From Rhodococcus tukisamuensis NBRC 100609 (GTDB lineage: Bacteria > Actinomycetota > Actinomycetes > Mycobacteriales > Mycobacteriaceae), in contig NZ_BCXG01000013.1 in assembly GCF_001894985.1 (NCBI RefSeq), forward strand, positions 1 to 64,000: a stretch of 64,000 nt of DNA, given 5' to 3'. Position 1 is the stretch's first letter. Each line of letters opens with the position of its first letter. Both the position numbers and the translations under genes were made by a program. Shown one piece after another: positions 32,763-44,438 of this stretch. The notes under the pieces were generated by a model. That model was not told the origin of the DNA and did not search any database. It saw only the letters and a program-made list of their open reading frames with translations.

Positions 32763-35699
<2,937 letters not shown>

Positions 35700-35835: not shown

Positions 35836-36525
35836 ATGGACGGGCAGCAGATGACAATCGACGACCACTACACCGGCGAGCTGAAGCAGGGGTCCGCCCC
35901 GCAACGCCGCACCATTGCCGGCGCCACGATCACCAAGATCTCGGTCGGCCCGATGGACAACAACTCCTACCTGGTGGTGTGCTCCGAGACGGGCAAGTCC
36001 CTGCTCATCGACGCGGCGAACGAGGCAGACCGGCTGGCGCTGCTGCTGGAGGCCGGCGCGCCGACGTTGGCGTCGATTGTCACCACCCACCAGCACCCCG
36101 ACCACTGGCTGGCACTCGCGGACGTGGTCAAGCTCACCGGTGTGCCGACGCTCGCGCACCCGCTCGACGCCGAGAAGCTGCCGGTCACCCCGGACCGCAC
36201 GGTCACCGACGGCGACCTCGTCGAGGTGGGCCGGCTCACGTTGGAGGTCATCCACCTGGCCGGCCACACCCCGGGCTCCATTGCGCTCGCGCTGACCGAC
36301 CCCGCGTCCGGGCAGGTGCACCTGTTCACCGGCGACTCCCTGTTCCCGGGCGGCGTCGGCAAGACCGCCGACCCGGAACAGTTCGCGTCCCTGCTGCGCG
36401 ACGTGACCACCAAGCTGTTCGAACGCTTCCCCGACGACACCGCGGTGTACCCGGGTCACGGCAAGGACACCACGCTCGGCGCCGAGCGGCCCTTCCTCGC
36501 GGAGTGGCAGGAGCGCGGCTGGTGA
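35836..36525 (+). CDS. Metallo-beta-lactamase-fold hydrolase (glyoxalase II-like)
   Basis: A 229-residue MBL-fold enzyme. The metal motif is THQHPDH at about 90-96 (HxHxDH), with later ligands in HLAGHTPGS, TGDSLFPGG and VYPGHGKDTT. Counterpart of Rv1637c beside uvrA. The ATG at 35836 lies 7 bp after a -10-like TAGCGT with no ribosome-binding site, suggesting a leaderless mRNA. Its 3' end (GDSLFPGG to the stop, 36331-36525) recurs twice downstream, at 37514-37703 and 39004-39199, behind inserted genes. This gene looks like the recipient site of repeated insertions that replaced its tail. Confidence 0.92.
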   Translation: MDGQQMTIDDHYTGELKQGSAPQRRTIAGATITKISVGPMDNNSYLVVCSETGKSLLIDAANEADRLALLLEAGAPTLASIVTTHQHPDHWLALADVVKLTGVPTLAHPLDAEKLPVTPDRTVTDGDLVEVGRLTLEVIHLAGHTPGSIALALTDPASGQVHLFTGDSLFPGGVGKTADPEQFASLLRDVTTKLFERFPDDTAVYPGHGKDTTLGAERPFLAEWQERGW

Positions 36526-36569
36526 CTCAGTTGCTCCCCAGCCGAACACCACACACCGCAGGAGTGAAG

Positions 36570-36869
36570 ATGACCGACGTCGGGCAACGGCCAAGCGACC
36601 TTCCCGCAACGTACTGCTCGGACGTCGACGGTGTGAGATACATCGTCATCGACCCCACGGCCGGGGACATGTCCGGCTGGATCATCGAGACCACCGATGG
36701 GGACGGCCGAGTATCGCGTTCGGCGTTCACGCGCGAAGCAACCTGGTACGAAACCCAGGACGGTGACTGGAACGGACTGGGCTACGGCACCCCCAAAAAT
36801 CCGTGGGCCGCTCTCGTCGATCGCGGAATGCAGATCACCAACTGGATCCGACCGGTCGGTGCGCCGTAG
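36570..36869 (+). CDS. Hypothetical protein of the first cassette
   Basis: A 99-residue protein, ATG at 36570 with AGGAG 5 bp before it. Sequence such as YCSDVDGVRYIVIDPTAGDMSGWIIET, then TWYETQDGDWNGLGYGTPKNPWAALV suggests a small beta-rich domain with many Trp and Gly. I do not recognise it. Codon use is AT-richer than the core. It begins 44 bp after the metallo-beta-lactamase stop and lies inside the first inserted cassette. Confidence 0.65.
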   Translation: MTDVGQRPSDLPATYCSDVDGVRYIVIDPTAGDMSGWIIETTDGDGRVSRSAFTREATWYETQDGDWNGLGYGTPKNPWAALVDRGMQITNWIRPVGAP

Positions 36870-36911
36870 CTGGCCGAGTTGTGACATGTATAGCCGGGGC
36901 CACGCGACCCG

Positions 36912-37391
36912 CTATGCGACTGCGACAGGCGTCCATCCGCTCGCGGCAGGTTTGCCACGAAGGACACGTTGTGGAGCACCGCTGAGGTTCACGAGGGCCT
37001 TCATCTCGTTGGCATACAACTCACGAAGCATGACCGGTCCGTTCACCGCGACCGAGCACTCGAGCACCGTCCCGACTTTGTTGTCGTGCACGCGAAATGG
37101 CTGAGCAAGACGGTGGATGGGTTGCAGGTACAGCTTGCGAGCGCCGGCCTTCCCGGTGAGCTTGGTGACCGCACAGAAGCCGACCACGCCTTTGTCGTTC
37201 GTTTGGTGCGCGACCACCACGTCCCCCACTGCGACATCTCCTGCGAGGTACTTCGATACCTCGGCCGACTGTGTCGAATAGTCACCGCCCCACTGAATCG
37301 GGCCCTTCTTGCGGAACACGTCCGCCGACCAATCTCCCCAATAGCCCGCCGGGCCACCCTCGACGTTGCACTTGTAGAGCCAATACCTCAT
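36912..37391 (-). CDS. EVE/PUA-like domain protein
   Basis: A 159-residue protein on the opposite strand. It opens MRYWLYKCNVEGGPAGYWGDW and has SKYLAGDVAVGDVVVAHQTNDKGVVGFCAVTKL, matching the pattern of EVE/PUA-like modified-base-binding domains (W-rich entry, then a short beta-barrel with xGDVVxxHQ). EVE domains often read modified cytosines and accompany restriction or defence genes. ATG at 37391 after GGGAGG. Its codon use and low GC mark it as foreign. Assignment from motif shape only. Confidence 0.6.
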   Translation of the reverse strand: MRYWLYKCNVEGGPAGYWGDWSADVFRKKGPIQWGGDYSTQSAEVSKYLAGDVAVGDVVVAHQTNDKGVVGFCAVTKLTGKAGARKLYLQPIHRLAQPFRVHDNKVGTVLECSVAVNGPVMLRELYANEMKALVNLSGAPQRVLRGKPAASGWTPVAVA

Positions 37392-37513
37392 GTGCTGCCC
37401 CGACCTCCCGCGGTCTCAAATTTCGACTCCACCCTTGCACGCACCCGGTTCATCATGCGCGGAAACACCGAGACTGTCGCTCCGCACCGTAGTTACTGGT
37501 AGTTGGAAGCTAT

Positions 37514-37703
37514 GAGTGGCCCACTGTTCCCCATTTGGTCCTTGGTGGACAGAAATCCCGAAGAGTTCGACGGACCCGGGACCTCAAGACTAGAAACTCC
37601 GAGCGCTTGTCAGGTGACGCGGTGGTCTCCTCCGGCCAGCGGGACACCACCATAGAACCTGCGCGCCCCTTCCTGGAGGGAGTGGCGGAAACGCGCCTGG
37701 TGA
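37514..37703 (+). pseudogene. Decayed second copy of the metallo-beta-lactamase 3' end
   Basis: Aligns by eye to the end of the metallo-beta-lactamase gene: GTGGCCCACTGTTCCCC matches the region encoding GDSLFP, AAATCCCGAAGAGTTCGACG matches that encoding NPEEF, and the final CGCCTGGTGAC matches that encoding RGW-stop. Several indels break the frame. It closes the first cassette (36526-37703). With copies at 36331-36525 and 39004-39199 it makes three serial 3' ends of one gene. Confidence 0.75.
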
Positions 37704-37878
37704 CCGCCTCAGCCAAGTCTCTACGGCACCTGTTAGTTGATTCGCCTCATCGTCGAACCCACGAACACCTGACTCATCGCCTGCCGGGGCATGCCAGCCA
37801 GGAAGTCGAGTCACGAAGCTCGGCCCCAAGACCTGGCATGTCAGCCGCCGTGTCGTACCTCCGCTATACGCTTCCGCC

Positions 37879-38946
37879 ATGACTGACAAGCCATCTGGCA
37901 TCGACTTGATGTCCCCGTACGAGCTCAAGGCATGGGTTTCACTAGTTGAATCGGCCAACGGAACGGCACCCGAAACGTGGCGCTCACGCACCTTGGCCGA
38001 AGCAAAGCAAAAGGCTAAGCGTGGAGCACAGCGCGCCAAGGGCGCAATTGAACGGGTGCCTGGGGGCTCGACGCTTACCGACGGCTTCGATTCCTCGGTT
38101 CGCCAGGCAATGAACGGGATACATACCATCACGGTCGAGCGAGGTCTCAACTCCGTCAAGCTATCGAATGTCATCGAAGCATTTAAGGCGGAGGGAGTGG
38201 AAATTGTTCACTATGAGGACATTAGCGGGATCGATTTACGATACTGCGATCGGTCGCTACCCCGAAAACGCGAGGGCTACCTTTTTCTAGGAGTAACTGA
38301 GGGTGTCGCGTCATCACTCGCCGTCACTGGAGCAATGGTTTCCTCGACTGTAACTGGCGGTACAACGGCCGCGGTTGCAATCGGTGCGATATCGGCCGAC
38401 ATCGTGACCGTGCTCGTCGGAATGGGTCGAATAATCGCCCTCACTGCAGCACATTACGGGTACGACGTTCGCGAGCCCGAGGAGCAGGTTTACGCAGCCG
38501 GCGTACTCGCATATTCTTCAGCCAGTAGTGCTGGGGAGAAGGCGGCTTCCTTGGCCTCCTTGTCACGTTTGACACAGATGATGATGCGAAAAGCCACGTG
38601 GAAGCAGTTGAATGGCGATTGGCTAGTTAAACTCATCCAGGGAGTCTTCGCCTCGCTTGGCCTAACGCTGACACACAAGAAGCTGGCACAGGCCGTGCCG
38701 ATTGCAGGTGCCGTGATTAACGGCGGAATGAACGCATACTTCGTCAACCAGACATTCGCGAGGGCCCAGCAGGCATACCGCTTGCGATTTCTGACGGAGA
38801 AGTACGGAATGAACCCCGAGGATTGGGCGCCTATCGTCGTCGATGACATCAATGTTAGCGCAGGCCAAATGCCCCTTGTGGACGAGCTTCTGGAACTTGA
38901 AATTGAGAAAGAGAAAGAGAATAGCCCCAGTCCCGCAAGTGACTGA
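37879..38946 (+). CDS. EcsC-family-like protein of the second cassette
   Basis: A 355-residue protein resembling EcsC-domain proteins: the early DGFDSSVRQAMNGIHTITVERGL segment, a Gly/Ala-rich central hydrophobic region (GVTEGVASSLAVTGAMVSSTVTGGTTAAVAIGAISADIVTVLVGM, about 135-180) and later SAGEKAASLASLSRLTQMMMR. EcsC proteins are membrane-associated and of uncertain function. The ATG at 37879 follows a -10-like TATACG by 8 bp, so it may be leaderless. GC is clearly lower than in neighbouring core genes, and the C-terminus is Glu/Lys-rich. Likely acquired. Confidence 0.6.
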   Translation: MTDKPSGIDLMSPYELKAWVSLVESANGTAPETWRSRTLAEAKQKAKRGAQRAKGAIERVPGGSTLTDGFDSSVRQAMNGIHTITVERGLNSVKLSNVIEAFKAEGVEIVHYEDISGIDLRYCDRSLPRKREGYLFLGVTEGVASSLAVTGAMVSSTVTGGTTAAVAIGAISADIVTVLVGMGRIIALTAAHYGYDVREPEEQVYAAGVLAYSSASSAGEKAASLASLSRLTQMMMRKATWKQLNGDWLVKLIQGVFASLGLTLTHKKLAQAVPIAGAVINGGMNAYFVNQTFARAQQAYRLRFLTEKYGMNPEDWAPIVVDDINVSAGQMPLVDELLELEIEKEKENSPSPASD

Positions 38947-39003
38947 CAACAACAGTTCGTCGACGGCCCCACCAGGCTGCCATGCGAAGAAGTTGCCGGT
39001 CGC

Positions 39004-39199
39004 CGGCGACTCCCTGTTCCCGGGGGGTCTTGGACGGACAACAAATCCCGAGGAGTTCAACGGGCTCTACCGCGACGTCACGACCAAGATCTTCGAACGC
39101 TTCCCCGACGACACCACCGTCTACCCGGGACACGGCAAAGACACCACCCTCGGCACCGAGCGGCCGCACCTGGCGGAGTGGCAGGCCCGCGGCTGGTGA
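39004..39199 (+). pseudogene. Third copy of the metallo-beta-lactamase 3' end, reading frame intact
   Basis: Encodes GDSLFPGGLGRTTNPEEF... to AEWQARGW-stop. My hand alignment gives 51 of 64 residues identical to the end of the upstream enzyme (13 differences), and long exact DNA matches (36331-36350 with 39004-39023; 36418-36441 with 39092-39115). It has no start or N-terminal metal site, so it is a displaced tail. The frame reads upstream through an EcsC-gene overlap, so a short fusion product is formally possible but unlikely. Ends the second cassette. Confidence 0.85.
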
Positions 39200-39389
39200 C
39201 TTGTCGCGAGGAGTGACGACAGATCCGGCCTGCTGTCGCGGTGAGCGCCGCCCGACGTCCAGCGCCGGCCGCGACCCCGCGCCAGGGACTGCCACCGTCG
39301 CCAGGCCCGCTCGGGGCAAAGGCTGAACGTATGCCTGCCCCGAGCGAGCCAGTCCTCACCCCCGCGTCGCCGAACGCGGCTGATGACCA

Positions 39390-39890
39390 TCAGGACTTCC
39401 CCCTCCCGGCCTGCCGCACCAGCGCCTCCTCGTTCACCTCGATGACGCGCACCGCGGCCTGGTGGGCCTCCCGCGCACGTGCCAATGCGGCCAGCAACGC
39501 CGGGATGTTGCCGCCTGACGCCAACAGCGTTTCCGCGTCGGCTGCGTGACCGCGCGCCGACTCCGAGTGCTCGAGCACCTTGCGGGTACGCGCATGGGCG
39601 CGCTGACGGACCCGCTCGGCGGCGGCCGCCACCGCGACGGCCGACGCTCTGGATCGAGTTCCCTTGCGCCCCTTCGTGGTCCGCCGCAGCTCGCGGTCGT
39701 ACTCACGCTGGATGTTCCTCATCCGCGCCCATTCGCTCGGTTCGGGCGCGGCGCCCGTCTCCGCTTCGATGCGCACCCGGGTGTCGTCGATCGACTTGAA
39801 AGCTGCGACGAGGGAGTTCGCGCCCGCCTCCAGGTTCGCGGTCACCTCCCTGCCCTCGACGAAGACGTGGCCACTGTGGTTGTCGGTCAT
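39390..39890 (-). CDS. Hypothetical coiled-coil protein
   Basis: A 166-residue, highly charged and mostly helical protein (KSIDDTRVRIEAETGAAPEPSEWARMRNIQREYDRELRRTTKGRKG, then AHARTRKVLEHSESARGHAADAETLLASGGNIPALLAALARAREAHQAAV). It has basic and acidic stretches, a possible coiled coil and no membrane segment. The ATG at 39890 has GAGGAG 9 bp upstream. It is 22 bp downstream of the HDAC-like gene and likely co-transcribed. Family not recognised. The 190 bp 39200-39389 before it hold nothing I can support. Confidence 0.6.
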   Translation of the reverse strand: MTDNHSGHVFVEGREVTANLEAGANSLVAAFKSIDDTRVRIEAETGAAPEPSEWARMRNIQREYDRELRRTTKGRKGTRSRASAVAVAAAAERVRQRAHARTRKVLEHSESARGHAADAETLLASGGNIPALLAALARAREAHQAAVRVIEVNEEALVRQAGRGKS

Positions 39891-39912
39891 CACTTCACTC
39901 CTCGGGTCGGGA

Positions 39913-40815
39913 TCAGCGGGACTGGCGGGCAACACTTTCGGCCGCGGCGGCGATCGTCGACCGGTGCAGGTCGACGAGCGTCTCGGCGTCCAGACGCTCA
40001 CCGATGTAGCCGCCGGCCAGGACGAAGGCAGCCGCTATGCCACGGGTGCGGCACCACTCGAAGACGAAACGCTCCCGCTCGGCCAGGATCTCGGCCGTGA
40101 TGCCGTCCAGGCCGCCGACGGCGCAGCCCTCGTACGGGTCCATGCCCGCGTTGTAGAGAACCAGGTCGAAACGCGGACCGAGGCGCTCGATCCGGCTCAG
40201 CGCCTGACCGATCTCGGACAGGTAGCGGTCGGCATCGGTGACCTCGGCCAGCTTCGCGCGGTCGGTGCCTGCGTACATGTCGAACATGCTCACCGACACG
40301 TCGACCTGCCAGATCCTGGCCTCGTCGGCGATCAACGAGGCCGTGCCGCCGCCGCAGTGGGCATCCAGGTCGACAATCAGCACATTGCCGGCCCCGGCGG
40401 CCAGTGCGGCCTTGCTCGCCAACGCCAGGCCGTTGAAGGTGCAGAAGCCACTCCCCGACCCGTACCGGGCGTGGTGCAAACCGGACGACAGCGACCCCGC
40501 CACGCCCTCCCGCAGGGCCGCGATCGCCGCCTCCACCGCTCCCCCGTTGGACGCCTGCACCATGGGGAAAAGGCCTGCGTCCCAGTCGAACCCCTGCCCC
40601 TCCGCCAGTTGACGCGGCTCGCCGGTCACGACCGCATCGACGTAGGCCGGGTCGTGAACCTGAGCGAACTGGTCCACGCTCAGCACGCGGGGCCGGGTCA
40701 GCTCGACCCCGGCGATCGGCGAGCGCAGCAGCGAGTCGGCGATCCACTGCGACTTGCGGGTGGTGTCGAAGGAGTAGGACGAACCGACGTAGTCCGGGCT
40801 GTAGTAGAGCTTCAC
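39913..40815 (-). CDS. Histone deacetylase-superfamily deacetylase
   Basis: A 300-residue zinc deacetylase of the HDAC/acetylpolyamine-amidohydrolase fold. Motifs seen: GLHHARYGSGSGFCTFN (active-site His pair), VLIVDLDAHCGGGTA (zinc ligands D and H; the usual second His-Gly of HHG is CG here) and LVLYNAGMDPYEG (zinc Asp). GTG at 40815 with GGAAGG 8 bp upstream. Substrates of bacterial members range from acetylpolyamines to acetoin; none is indicated here. It sits in the accessory region next to the recombinase-like gene, in a two-gene unit with the coiled-coil gene. Confidence 0.85.
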   Translation of the reverse strand: MKLYYSPDYVGSSYSFDTTRKSQWIADSLLRSPIAGVELTRPRVLSVDQFAQVHDPAYVDAVVTGEPRQLAEGQGFDWDAGLFPMVQASNGGAVEAAIAALREGVAGSLSSGLHHARYGSGSGFCTFNGLALASKAALAAGAGNVLIVDLDAHCGGGTASLIADEARIWQVDVSVSMFDMYAGTDRAKLAEVTDADRYLSEIGQALSRIERLGPRFDLVLYNAGMDPYEGCAVGGLDGITAEILAERERFVFEWCRTRGIAAAFVLAGGYIGERLDAETLVDLHRSTIAAAAESVARQSR

Positions 40816-40942
40816 AGAGGTCGCCTTCCGATGGGTGTGACGGCGGCAGCCGTCGACGACGGCCGACCACGGTGCGGTCGGCCGGAAATCGGTGGAAGAG
40901 GTGCCGCCGACAGGTGCGCCGGCGGAGAAGGACGCCTGGCGG

Positions 40943-41659
40943 CTAGGAGTCCAGGTCGAGTTGCCGGCGGACGTCGGCGGCGTTGTCGCTGCCGAGGATC
41001 GCCTTGATGGTGGCGGCGAACCACTTCGATCCGCCACGGGCCGTGGGGATTCCGTCGGACATCAGCCCGTCCGCGATGGCCTGGAGCGTGCGGCCACCCG
41101 CACGTTCGACGAGGATTCGACGGGTCACCTCGACCGGCAGCGAGGGCGCGGCCCCGACTCGCTCGCCGCGCTCCTTCTTCGCGGTCAGACCGACCTTGGT
41201 GCGTTCACTCGTGCGCTGCTGCGCACTGCTGACCGACCGCGTGATGATGTCCGCCGCCATTCGTCCCGCCGGAGTGCCCGTGTCCAGGTCCAGGTCCACC
41301 AGGTGCACGGACCAGCCCTCCGCCCGGGAGACTCCCAGCAGTCGCAGCAGGTCGACGATCGGTCGACACAGTCGGTCGACCCTGGACACCACCAGGCCGC
41401 CGGCATCACCGCGTGCGACCGCCTCGAACGCCGTCCTCGCTCCGACGGACCCCCGAAACAGCTTGAGGCCGGTGAGGTCCTCGTCCTCGTCGACGTACTC
41501 GCCGACGACGGTCAGACCCTTCCGGTCCGCGTAGTCCGCGATGACCGCCCGCTGGTCGTCGAGCCCGAGTCCCGACGCCGCACGCTCGGCCCTACCCACC
41601 CGCAAGTAGGCGACTACCGTGTCGGCAGTCGCCTCGATGCGGGGTTCGGCTGCGGTCAT
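40943..41659 (-). CDS. Serine-recombinase-like protein lacking the catalytic serine
   Basis: A 238-residue resolvase-fold protein: DTVVAYLRVGRAERAASGLGLDDQRAVIADY, then GLVVSRVDRLCRPIVDLLRLL, then VGLTAKKERGERVGAAPSLP and a C-terminal helix-turn-helix-like GRTLQAIADGLMSDGIPTARGGSKW (Recombinase-type). Position 22 is Gly where active serine recombinases have the nucleophile Ser (RVS). It may be inactive in strand exchange and act as a DNA-binding protein. The ATG at 41659 follows TAATGT by 6 bp, suggesting a leaderless mRNA. Only recombinase relative in the accessory region. Confidence 0.75.
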   Translation of the reverse strand: MTAAEPRIEATADTVVAYLRVGRAERAASGLGLDDQRAVIADYADRKGLTVVGEYVDEDEDLTGLKLFRGSVGARTAFEAVARGDAGGLVVSRVDRLCRPIVDLLRLLGVSRAEGWSVHLVDLDLDTGTPAGRMAADIITRSVSSAQQRTSERTKVGLTAKKERGERVGAAPSLPVEVTRRILVERAGGRTLQAIADGLMSDGIPTARGGSKWFAATIKAILGSDNAADVRRQLDLDS

Positions 41660-41718
41660 ACGACAACATTAACATTGGGACCGTCATTATTAATTGGTTT
41701 CGGCGAAACCTAACGGAA

Positions 41719-41898
41719 TCACAGAGCGCCGAGCGCAAGCGCGGCACCCTCCAGGCGGGCCACCGTCCCCGCAGCTGCGGTGAGCTCCCCCGCCTCGATC
41801 CGTCCGAGCAGCAGGCCGATCGATGCGGCTGCCTGCCGCGCGTGATCCAGCCGGTTCGCCGAATCCCCACAGTCGCACCCGACGAGCGTATCGCCCAC
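41719..41898 (-). CDS. Small hypothetical protein upstream of the recombinase-like gene
   Basis: A 59-residue predicted protein (VGDTLVGCDCGDSANRLDHARQAAASIGLLLGRIEAGELTAAAGTVARLEGAALALGAL-type) from GTG 41898, with GAGGGGG 4 bp upstream. It has a Cys-rich start (CDCGD), then a single Ala-rich helical hairpin; no family recognised. It lies 59 bp upstream of the recombinase-like gene on the same strand. Real but small; could be missed by gene callers. Confidence 0.5.
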   Translation of the reverse strand: MGDTLVGCDCGDSANRLDHARQAAASIGLLLGRIEAGELTAAAGTVARLEGAALALGAL

Positions 41899-42152
41899 AC
41901 CGCCCCCTCACACCGACCGATTCCGACCCAGCGCCGGTGCCACCCATTGTGCCCCGGTCACCTCCGCACGCCGCCGAGCACCAGAGCGGACGCCACCCCC
42001 GCCCGGCGGGCCACGGCCGACTGGTCGCCGACTGATCCGGGCGCGTCCCGAGCGACGCGGCCCGCCACGCTGACCTGGCGCTTCTGCACCCGCCGCACCC
42101 AGCCACTAGACTCGCTTGGCCCATTTGGACCCATTCCGGCCGAGGAGATCAC

Positions 42153-44438
42153 TTGCCCGACAAGGCACTGCAACACGGCGACCTGGACCGTGAGCAGGAG
42201 TACGTGTCGATGCTGTACGACCGGCTCGACGGCCTGCGCTCGTACGCCGCGACCCGGCTGTCGAAGGTTCTGTTGCAGACCGGCGGCACCCCGCAGGCAC
42301 GCAGCGAGCGCGAGTCGTTCAGCCAGATGTACACCGAGGACATCGCCAAGTACGACGCCGCCGAGAACGGCCTCTGCTTCGGCCGCATCGACCTGGACGG
42401 CGAGGCCGCGGACGGAGACGCGCTGCGGTACATCGGCCGGGTCGGCATCCTCGACGAGGCCAACGACTACGAGACGCTGCTGCTCGACTGGCGCGCACCG
42501 CTGGCCCGTCCGTTCTACCTGGCCACCCCGGCGCAACCGGAAGGCGTGACGCGACGCCGCCACATCCGTACCCGCAGCCGCCGGGTCACCGGCCTGGGCG
42601 ACGAGTACCTCGACCTCGCCGCCGCGGAGCGCGCCGGCGTGGCGGACGGCACCGACGGCGTCGCCGGCGAGAGCGCCCTGCTCACCGCGCTGAACGCGGC
42701 CCGGACCGGACACATGAACGACATCGTCGAGACCATCCAGTCCGAGCAGGACGCCATCATCCGGTCCAGCCACAAGTCGGTGATGGTGGTGCAGGGCGGA
42801 CCGGGCACGGGCAAAACCGCCGTCGCGCTGCACCGCGCCGCCTACCTGCTCTACACCTACCGGCAGCAACTGGCGAAGAGCGGCGTGCTGATCGTCGGCC
42901 CCAACGCGACGTTCCTCGACTACATCGGCCAGGTGCTGCCGTCGCTCGGCGAGACCGGGGTGCTGCTCTCCACCATCGGCGACCTGTACCCCGGAGTCAT
43001 TGCCACCGTGCACGACTCGCTCGAGTGCGGCGAGGTGAAGGGCTCGCTCGAGATGGTGGAGGTGCTCAAGCAGGCAGTGCGCGACCGGCAGCTGACCCCG
43101 CCGGAACCGGTCACCATCACCTTCGACACCTACCCGATCACCCTCGACCGCAAGACCGTCACCCGGGCCCGCGGCCGCGCGCGGTCCTCCCGGCGGCCGC
43201 ACAACCTGGCCCGGCCGATCTTCGTCTCCGCGGTGATCGAGTCCCTCGCCGACCAGTTCGCCGCACGGCTCGGGTCGAACGTCCTCGGCGGCGCGAATCT
43301 GCTCAGCCGCGACGACGTCGCCGACATCCGCGACGAGATGCGCGAGGACCCGGACCTGATGGACGCGATCGACGCGCTGTGGCCGCAACTGACGCCGCAG
43401 CGGGTCCTCGCCGACCTGCTGACCTCGCGGTCCCGGCTGGACACCGCGGCCCGCGACCTGACCGAGAGCCAGCGCGCACTCCTGCACCGCACCAGGATGA
43501 CCGGGTTCAGCCCGGCCGACGCACCCCTGCTCGACGAGCTGGCCGAACTGCTCGGCGTGGACGACGCCGCGGAACGTGACCGCGCACAACGCGAGTGGCG
43601 AGCACAGATCGCGGACGCGCAGGGCGCGCTCGACATCCTCACCGGCTCCGCGCCGCAGGACCTCGAGGACGAACTCGACCCCGAGATCCTGATGGCGTAC
43701 GACCTGATCGACGCGGATCAGCTTGCCCAACGCCAGGACCTGGGCCACCGGCTCACCGCCGCGGAGCGGGCGGCAGCCGACCGCACCTGGACCTACGGGC
43801 ACGTCATCGTCGACGAGGCACAGGAGCTCTCGGCGATGGCCTGGCGAATGCTGATGCGCCGCATCCCGAATCGGTGGATGACCCTGGTCGGGGACACCGC
43901 CCAGACCGGCGACCCGGCCGGCAGCTCGTCCTGGCAGACGGTGCTCGAGCCGTACGTGGCCCGGCGCTGGAAGCTGACCGAGCTGACCGTCAACTACCGC
44001 ACCCCGGCGGAGATCATGGCCGTGGCGCAGGACGTGCTCGCGGCGATCGACCCGACCCAGACGGCGCCCCGGTCGGTGCGCGAGAGCGGGAACGTGCCCT
44101 GGGCGCACCGGGTTCCGGCGGCGTCGGTGGCCGACGAGGTCCGTCGGCGGGTGGCCGCCCACACCGGGCCCGGGCTCACCGTGGTGATCGCGGCCGAGGA
44201 CTCGGTCGGCGAGTTCACGGACCTGGCATCGGATTCGGTGAGCGTGCTGGCCGTCCGGGACGTGAAGGGGCTCGAGTTCGACTCGGTCCTGATCGTCGAG
44301 CCGCAGCGGATCCTCGACGAGTCACCGCGGGGACTCAACGACCTGTACGTCGCCCTCACCCGCGCCACCCAGCGGCTCGGCGTGGTCCACGCCCGGCCGC
44401 TCCCGGACGTGCTCGCGAAACTGGTTCCGGCCGAGTAA
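42153..44438 (+). CDS. helD: RNA polymerase-recycling motor HelD (UvrD-like helicase family)
   Basis: A 761-residue superfamily 1 ATPase. An N-terminal coiled coil (residues about 10-75) enters RNA polymerase channels in HelD. Walker A GGPGTGKT is at 215-222, VIVDEAQELS near 552 is motif II, and motifs GDTAQTG and LYVALTRATQRLGVVH lie at the C-terminus. HelD releases stalled RNA polymerase, and actinobacterial HelR relatives give rifamycin tolerance. The likely start is the TTG at 42153 with GAGGAG 5 bp upstream. Its place between the accessory region and the stress-protein gene is unlike M. tuberculosis. In the 254-bp region upstream (41899-42152) I see only the start region. Confidence 0.88.
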   Translation: MPDKALQHGDLDREQEYVSMLYDRLDGLRSYAATRLSKVLLQTGGTPQARSERESFSQMYTEDIAKYDAAENGLCFGRIDLDGEAADGDALRYIGRVGILDEANDYETLLLDWRAPLARPFYLATPAQPEGVTRRRHIRTRSRRVTGLGDEYLDLAAAERAGVADGTDGVAGESALLTALNAARTGHMNDIVETIQSEQDAIIRSSHKSVMVVQGGPGTGKTAVALHRAAYLLYTYRQQLAKSGVLIVGPNATFLDYIGQVLPSLGETGVLLSTIGDLYPGVIATVHDSLECGEVKGSLEMVEVLKQAVRDRQLTPPEPVTITFDTYPITLDRKTVTRARGRARSSRRPHNLARPIFVSAVIESLADQFAARLGSNVLGGANLLSRDDVADIRDEMREDPDLMDAIDALWPQLTPQRVLADLLTSRSRLDTAARDLTESQRALLHRTRMTGFSPADAPLLDELAELLGVDDAAERDRAQREWRAQIADAQGALDILTGSAPQDLEDELDPEILMAYDLIDADQLAQRQDLGHRLTAAERAAADRTWTYGHVIVDEAQELSAMAWRMLMRRIPNRWMTLVGDTAQTGDPAGSSSWQTVLEPYVARRWKLTELTVNYRTPAEIMAVAQDVLAAIDPTQTAPRSVRESGNVPWAHRVPAASVADEVRRRVAAHTGPGLTVVIAAEDSVGEFTDLASDSVSVLAVRDVKGLEFDSVLIVEPQRILDESPRGLNDLYVALTRATQRLGVVHARPLPDVLAKLVPAE

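Follow-up and report, generated by a model that had tools for sequence, protein, structure and literature searches.

The 3′ end of a uvrA-linked metallo-beta-lactamase gene as a probable serine-integrase attachment site in Actinomycetota, with a putative old cassette array in Rhodococcus tukisamuensis

We analyzed a 64,000-nucleotide (nt) stretch of Rhodococcus tukisamuensis NBRC 100609 (contig NZ_BCXG01000013.1, positions 1 to 64,000; hereafter the window), in which the 3′ end of a metallo-beta-lactamase (MBL) gene recurs twice downstream of the gene, each time behind a short cassette. We refer to the gene's own end as A and to the copies as tails B and C. Attachment sites are written as left arm/right arm, with B and B′ for the native chromosomal site (attB) and P and P′ for the site of the element (attP). 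The locus is organized as follows.

32763-35699, minus strand: uvrA, the divergent neighbor of the MBL gene
35836-36525, plus strand: MBL-fold hydrolase gene (PF00753), divergent from uvrA; its 3′ end is the proposed target site
36323-36369, plus strand: site A, the inferred native attB (B/B′), with a TTCCC core at 36343-36347; arms set by comparison
36526-37526, no strand assigned: cassette 1, about 1 kb, with two open reading frames (ORFs)
37527-37703, plus strand: tail B, a decayed copy of the MBL 3′ end with remnants of an element-type right arm
37704-38996, no strand assigned: cassette 2, about 1.3 kb, of lower G+C content (0.57)
38997-39199, plus strand: tail C, open to the stop codon, consisting of a B-like left arm (38997-39016), a core at 39017 and an element-type P′ motif (39017-39043)
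42028-44438, plus strand: helicase gene (from 42153) with its upstream region, where synteny with genus relatives resumes

A first-pass annotation of the window had described three serial MBL 3′ ends, and all three were recovered by repeat search, alignment, and resampling. From the core to the stop codon, A and C are identical at 141 of 183 nt and 48 of 61 residues, such that the last ~62 MBL codons recur; this is close to the 51 of 64 residues counted earlier and to the 78% identity over 65 residues returned by protein search. The repeat search aligned A and C at 87% over 131 nt and 73% over 59 nt, and the two share an identical run of 24 nt. The left arm of tail C matches the MBL gene's own arm at 17 of 20 positions. 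Tail B is broken: it contains an in-frame stop, and its weak matches to the tail profile are split over two frames. Its gapped alignment scores were 59 to C and 42 to A, values reached by none of 2000 first-order Markov resamples of B (maxima 30 and 31). Tail B is a decayed but real copy, beyond what chance would give. Searching the window's genome at E 0.001 returned, apart from A and C, just remoter MBL relatives; since this search likewise missed B, another decayed copy elsewhere would escape it too. The earlier remark that a cassette begins 1 bp after a stop codon merely restates where the tail ends.

The sequence to the right of the core distinguishes two types of tail. Window tail C and the tail carried by mycobacteriophage Larva, described below, encode GRTT at a position where native genes encode GKT or GNT, and tail B retains remnants of the GRTT-encoding motif. 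By this criterion, A is a complete native-type site, C is of the element type, and B is of the element type as far as it can be read, its left side being too decayed for arm typing. In these short sequences, the rate of nonsynonymous substitution (dN) relative to genome G001 is 0.055 for A versus 0.141 for C, and A and C differ from each other by a dN of 0.155 and a synonymous rate (dS) of 0.772. These A-C values point to evolution of both sequences mainly as functional gene ends. As A is native in type and closer to the genus, it is unlike a tail that arrived with a cassette.

We compared the locus across relatives, as the first-pass annotation had proposed. In five genus relatives, the MBL gene is intact, no tail copy precedes the helicase gene, and the MBL-to-helicase gap is 124-1475 nt; these gaps match the window just near the helicase start, plus one 26-nt match inside the MBL gene. 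Other actinobacteria hold other genes at the site, bounded by MBL tails. Within the family, the MBL tail was detected in 398 of 401 genomes and the P′ motif in eight of 401, with none for the motif read backwards. In five of the eight (G166, G204, G214, G238, and G388), the gene tail is of the element type and another tail lies further downstream on that contig; the other three are G380, whose second tail is on a different contig, G054, with one tail match, and the window's genome. We re-searched all 32 other family genomes with at least two tail matches, together with G316 and G331. Among the re-searched genomes that lack the motif, a second tail nearby on the same strand was seen only in G184. 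Here, the second copy is near-identical and similarity extends left of the core, as in a plain duplication. This partial MBL duplication (L051, 2656-5627) has a second copy that is of the native type and has no stop.

The G184 duplication is a precedent for a simple account of the window, namely that B and C are ordinary partial MBL duplications that decayed, with unrelated genes between them. Such a duplication should carry similarity into the gene body. Instead, with positions counted from the core, A-C identity is 0.25-0.40 between −80 and −20, rises to 0.60-1.00 between −20 and 0, and is 0.91 within the core itself. Because the similarity ends ~20 nt left of TTCCC, C is a tail, with no remains of a full-length duplicate. 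Its right arm is also element-type, and many genera show this same junction. Judged by its junction sequence, tail C refutes this account, and we regard duplication as highly improbable for the locus as a whole. Two outcomes that the first-pass annotation had recognized as damaging to its proposal, loss of the B and C similarities on proper alignment and an origin of the tails as full-length relics, did not materialize.

A protein search of phage records revealed that Larva and its kin carry an MBL tail adjoining a serine integrase. The Larva tail is gp38, annotated as "hydrolase" (L028, 3501-3689), and its reading frame exceeds the annotated 43 residues; a 43-residue protein related to hydrolase C termini has been described in K5 phages (PMC5679794). 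Relatives of the Larva integrase were found at E 1e-70 in six of 401 family genomes and adjoin a tail in four, G166, G380, G388, and G036. In G036, the motif is a variant, and a separate contig holds the integrase with its tail. We then fetched 40 regions from motif-bearing genomes, making 51 scanned loci with those obtained earlier; these loci were selected for their tails, and the G316 and G331 integrase loci were excluded. An integrase match, in some cases a mere fragment, is present in 27 of the 51. In 26 of these 27, the integrase starts 34-142 nt from the tail and is oriented away from it, the placement of an integrase gene beside an attachment site that characterizes large serine integrase systems. 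An IMG/VR contig has no Larva-integrase relative in its first 4476 nt (L037), and the whole contig (L153) has an integrase beside its second tail. Two human-faecal "Bacteriophage sp." records (H1 and H2) contain an MBL gene and, in the part read, no Larva integrase relative.

MBL homologs on plasmid-labelled records proved to be full-length genes in the four opened (H31, H32, H34, and H38) and in S. clavuligerus, and the Nonomuraea record, which is unannotated, has an open frame of 228 residues. Full-length homologs on Rhodococcus and Gordonia plasmids (L029, L030, and L032) lie near helix-turn-helix or methyltransferase genes. At one occupied locus, in Mycolicibacterium litorale (L145, 3982-4631), the match to the MBL gene is split into two overlapping parts, as a frameshift just upstream of the core would produce. 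In four mycobacterial elements (L054, L166, L182, and L188), common repeats of GACATATG directly follow the tail stop codon.

To define the site, we compared the gene-attached and far copies at each locus; pairs were assigned manually as integrase-bearing or integrase-less, and for G408, G449, and G204 the core is registered one position off, such that their arm values are inexact. In 20 integrase-bearing pairs, identity between the copies is 0.09-0.40 left of the core and 0.84 within it. A T[GA]TT-like motif lies at −25 in 17 of the 20 far copies, and the gene's TGTT-like sequence lies at −20. The outer motif is thus 5 bp further out in the far copy, in line with the 5-bp difference in zinc-ribbon motif position described for attP relative to attB (PMC3783163). 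Where both ends of an integrase-bearing locus were read, the gene-attached tail is of the P′ type and the far tail of the B′ type. From this arrangement, we infer that integration swaps the gene's end for that of the element and displaces the native end. Integrase-less pairs are more varied. In 10 of 31 of them, as in window tail C, the left arm is similar to the B arm of the gene, with 13-18 of 20 positions shared, compared to none of the 20 integrase pairs; the 99.9th percentile of 2650 control comparisons was 12. The TGTT-like motif is at −20 in six integrase-less far copies and at −25 in four.

We built a P′ pattern, a 27-nt signature, from eleven sites, window C and ten others, and searched a collection of 84,980 bacterial and archaeal species, each represented by a single genome. 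The pattern matched 83 genome stretches, of which 80 were listed, all with actinobacterial titles. Of 84 sites in the listed stretches, 72 are continuous with an MBL body, 11 lack such a body, and one is too near an edge. We traced 76 of the 80 loci to genomes and tallied tails by hand at E 1e-17. At least two tails on one contig and strand were present in 41 genomes, with one pair 93 kb apart, and in eight genomes the second tail was solely on another contig. Element-type tails unattached to an MBL gene occur at L076, L113, and L137, and in G410 and G444 they are on a different contig from the gene; unattached tails may be sites that were displaced or elements that inserted elsewhere.

Short intervals of 0.4-6.4 kb separate many of the tails and contain no integrase match. 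Like the window with A, B, and C, they are integrase-less elements that retain sites on both sides, as described for cis-mobilizable elements (CIMEs) and accretion. Some form arrays: P′-type tails are followed by a B′-type last tail in G414, G411, G440, G454, and G438, G467 has five tail matches on one contig, and six genomes (G404, G409, G412, G415, G416, and G472) have more than one B′-type far tail. We listed 35 cargo proteins and compared 20 to Pfam and 10 to PADLOC. Pfam matched 16 of the 20, including PIN, RES, Fic, NB-ARC/TPR, RAMA, dehydrogenase, amidohydrolase, and arginase families, three AAA/DUF4143 proteins, and others; PADLOC matched one of the 10, the RAMA protein. AAA_14/DUF4143 ATPase genes are present in three integrase-less cassettes of different genera (L160, L179, and L192).

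Two cassettes are shared between species. Mycolicibacterium agri (G461) and a Mycobacterium metagenome bin (G458) are 98.1% identical in the cassette and 98.4% in its tail, while the flanks reach just 81.6% before the first core and 80.1% beyond the second. Two Streptomyces (G401 and G402) are 96.4% identical in the cassette and 96.2% in the tail, with flanks at 84.8% upstream, 86.0% right of the second core, and 78.7% further on. Compared base by base, identity steps within ~6 nt of the core at both ends in both pairs. Because identity breaks at the core, the shared cassettes look like mobile units bounded by it. Downstream of the shared cassette, G458 has a native-type tail (B*/B′) followed by a Usp gene, and G461 has an element-type tail (B*/P′), its native-type far end (P/B′), an integrase fragment, and Usp being on a different contig. 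With the caution that G458 is a metagenome bin, this difference looks like an insertion at the downstream site.

Taken together, these comparisons make it very probable that the uvrA-linked MBL 3′ end is a serine-integrase attB in many Actinomycetota and that the window holds an old array of the integrase-less kind. Crossover would occur in TTCCC, within a conserved Phe-Pro-Gly-Gly stretch of the MBL gene. Phages and larger elements would carry an integrase gene, attP and, directly after attP, the last ~62 MBL codons. On integration, the element's end would replace that of the gene, and the native end would move to the far side of the insert; since the element supplies a replacement end, the MBL gene would stay open. 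Shorter units that lack an integrase, presumably mobilized by an integrase in trans, would share the core, bring an element-type tail and one or a few genes, and stack into arrays of tail-delimited cassettes. In the window, the two cassettes together with tails B and C would be such an array.

Several observations weigh against this reading, some of them in the window itself. The order of its tails is reversed relative to the rule, with native-type A at the gene and element-type C last. There is no final native tail remnant at 39200-42100, where alignments to A and C were no better than those to shuffles. In a simple serial story C would have been displaced longest, yet it is intact while B has decayed, which we take to oppose that story. 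Elsewhere, integrase relatives in G316 and G331 have no adjacent tail, 27 of the 76 motif genomes have one tail only at E 1e-17, and G410 has a native (B′-type) gene tail together with a cassette. The P′ pattern, moreover, was derived from sites that were already known, including window C. In addition, many cassette sites are B/P′ hybrids, which a published rule, considered below, predicts to be inert alone.

The native type of A and the missing final native tail call for an additional event in the window. The likeliest candidate is homologous recombination via the tails, either as an insertion or as an allele replacement. One could go further and propose that homologous recombination did everything here, cassette and MBL-tail DNA entering via crossovers in the tails or flanks with no site-specific step. 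This would explain the intact native A, the element-type last tail C, and the lack of a further native tail, and A and C share the 24-nt identical run. Homologous crossovers, however, would not place identity steps at the core at both ends in two species pairs, and integrases sit at this same core. For these reasons, we see homologous recombination as a possible later step at this locus, not the whole system, and think it rather unlikely as the sole explanation. The proposal of the first-pass annotation, an insertion hotspot at which each insert supplies a replacement tail, therefore fits the site in general, since other actinobacteria have other genes bounded by MBL tails, but is not clear in the window, where A is native-type. 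The recombinase, whose class was invisible to that annotation, appears to be a large serine integrase borne on phages and on larger elements.

The B-like left arms of integrase-less cassettes raise a further question. An attL-like hybrid should not recombine with other sites unaided (PMC3783163). As the circle of a B-armed cassette would be a B/P′ hybrid, and so attL-like, by this rule it should not recombine unaided. Since a different serine integrase can use pseudo-attB sites (PMC5937489), we considered whether the B-like arms could derive from capture at such sites. Insertion of a cassette would leave a far end of B*/B′, again attB-like. We tentatively entertain, as a possibility somewhat short of even, that these units are a serine-integrase counterpart of integrons: hybrid-site cassettes, with a B-type left arm and a P-type right arm plus gene tail, would keep the target open, leave a fresh attB-like B*/B′ at the far end, and allow arrays to grow by ordinary attP × attB insertions. 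The shared cassette followed by B*/B′ in G458 and by B*/P′ in G461 suggests a natural growth step of such an array.

The remaining features of the window lie in the cassettes and between tail C and the helicase gene.

36570-36869, plus strand: cassette 1 ORF of 99 amino acids, no family assigned
36912-37391, minus strand: cassette 1 ORF of 159 amino acids, no family assigned
37879-38946, plus strand: EcsC-family gene in cassette 2, 355 amino acids (PF12787, E 1.5e-22)
40943-41659, minus strand: small serine recombinase, 238 amino acids (PF00239, E 7.2e-18; phrog_95 integrase, E 2e-21)

An EVE-like assignment of the 159-residue ORF found no support from Pfam, PADLOC, or PHROGs. The EcsC protein also matches the PADLOC candidate PDC-S29 (E 3.7e-10), and relatives are present in 15 of 331 family genomes, counting the window's. 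A plasmid DNA search with 36528-39001 gave no match, and EcsC had two distant matches on plasmids; a pattern-based search of viral contigs found no EcsC relative. As the first-pass annotation had noted, neither cassette contains an active integrase, the nearest candidate being the small recombinase 1.7 kb right of C. This recombinase is sparse, with relatives at E 1e-35 in 10 of 331 family genomes including the window's. In G204, a 41% identical relative adjoins the far MBL tail, and the recombinase's connection to the window array is uncertain. Between C and the recombinase gene, 39913-41037 (minus strand) encodes a Histone-deacetylase-family protein (PF00850) and a 203-residue protein with no family, at a host-like G+C content (0.70).

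The recombinase could be read as the trace of one decayed integrated element, a prophage or island that lost its integrase, in place of separate cassettes. G451, which resembles an integrase-deleted relative of integrase-bearing elements and has repeats of the identical type after its tail, offers a parallel. A single element would give two tails, whereas the window has three, and of five window proteins searched in PHROGs, the recombinase alone had a functional match. The window cassette proteins thus gave no sign in PHROGs of phage genes between the tails, as a K5-type prophage would have, and we consider a single decayed element improbable.

Serine-integrase attachment sites are hard to predict owing to their tiny common cores (PMC9262239 and PMC10654092). 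With the 27-nt signature, apparently occupied sites can be located across many genera of actinobacteria; the signature further yields a predicted attB for K5 phages and would give meaning to the "hydrolase" gp38. It also exposes a putative accretion hotspot with cargo that is toxin-antitoxin-like, EcsC, NB-ARC, or metabolic. Should the hybrid cassette sites prove functional in trans, the rule that recombination in the absence of a directionality factor is confined to attP and attB would need qualification. Sites like the MBL tail may be a little-noticed route for gene exchange.

We found no description of the MBL attachment site in the open-licence literature, an absence that is weak evidence. 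The closest relatives are the K5 mycobacteriophages (Larva, AlleyCat, Edugator, and kin), which, like the hotspot, have a serine integrase adjoining an MBL 3′ tail. They differ in being whole phages, and the available portions of the literature on them do not give the tail the meaning of an attachment site. In Dehalococcoides, a serine recombinase is associated with tandem islands after the 3′ end of ssrA, with several repeats and some islands lacking an integrase (PMC3146451). There, the target is an RNA gene and the repeat is 20 bp, while the MBL site has a coding tail of ~186 nt and distinct element and arm types. In CIMEs, decayed integrase-less elements that keep their attachment sites are stacked at a gene end by later insertions; the same review associates gene-end sites with tyrosine recombinases and sites within disrupted genes with specific serine recombinases of integrative and mobilizable elements (PMC5704250). 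At the MBL site, by comparison, a serine integrase appears to spare the gene. Staphylococcal cassette chromosome (SCC) elements use serine recombinases (ccr) at the 3′ end of a conserved gene (the rlmH site) and form composite arrays; the MBL site resembles them in its serine recombinases at a conserved gene end and its arrays, with a different target and other recombinases. Like the MBL site, integrons hold short cassettes in arrays, with one or two genes of mixed kinds per cassette, some of them toxin-antitoxin-like. They use the tyrosine integrase IntI and attC sites, whereas the recombinases seen at the MBL site are of the serine type and each site includes a coding gene tail. In kind, the MBL site is a case of accretion at a gene end, like the ssrA islands and CIMEs. 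What is new is a serine integrase that spares a coding gene, a long coding tail, and hybrid cassette sites.

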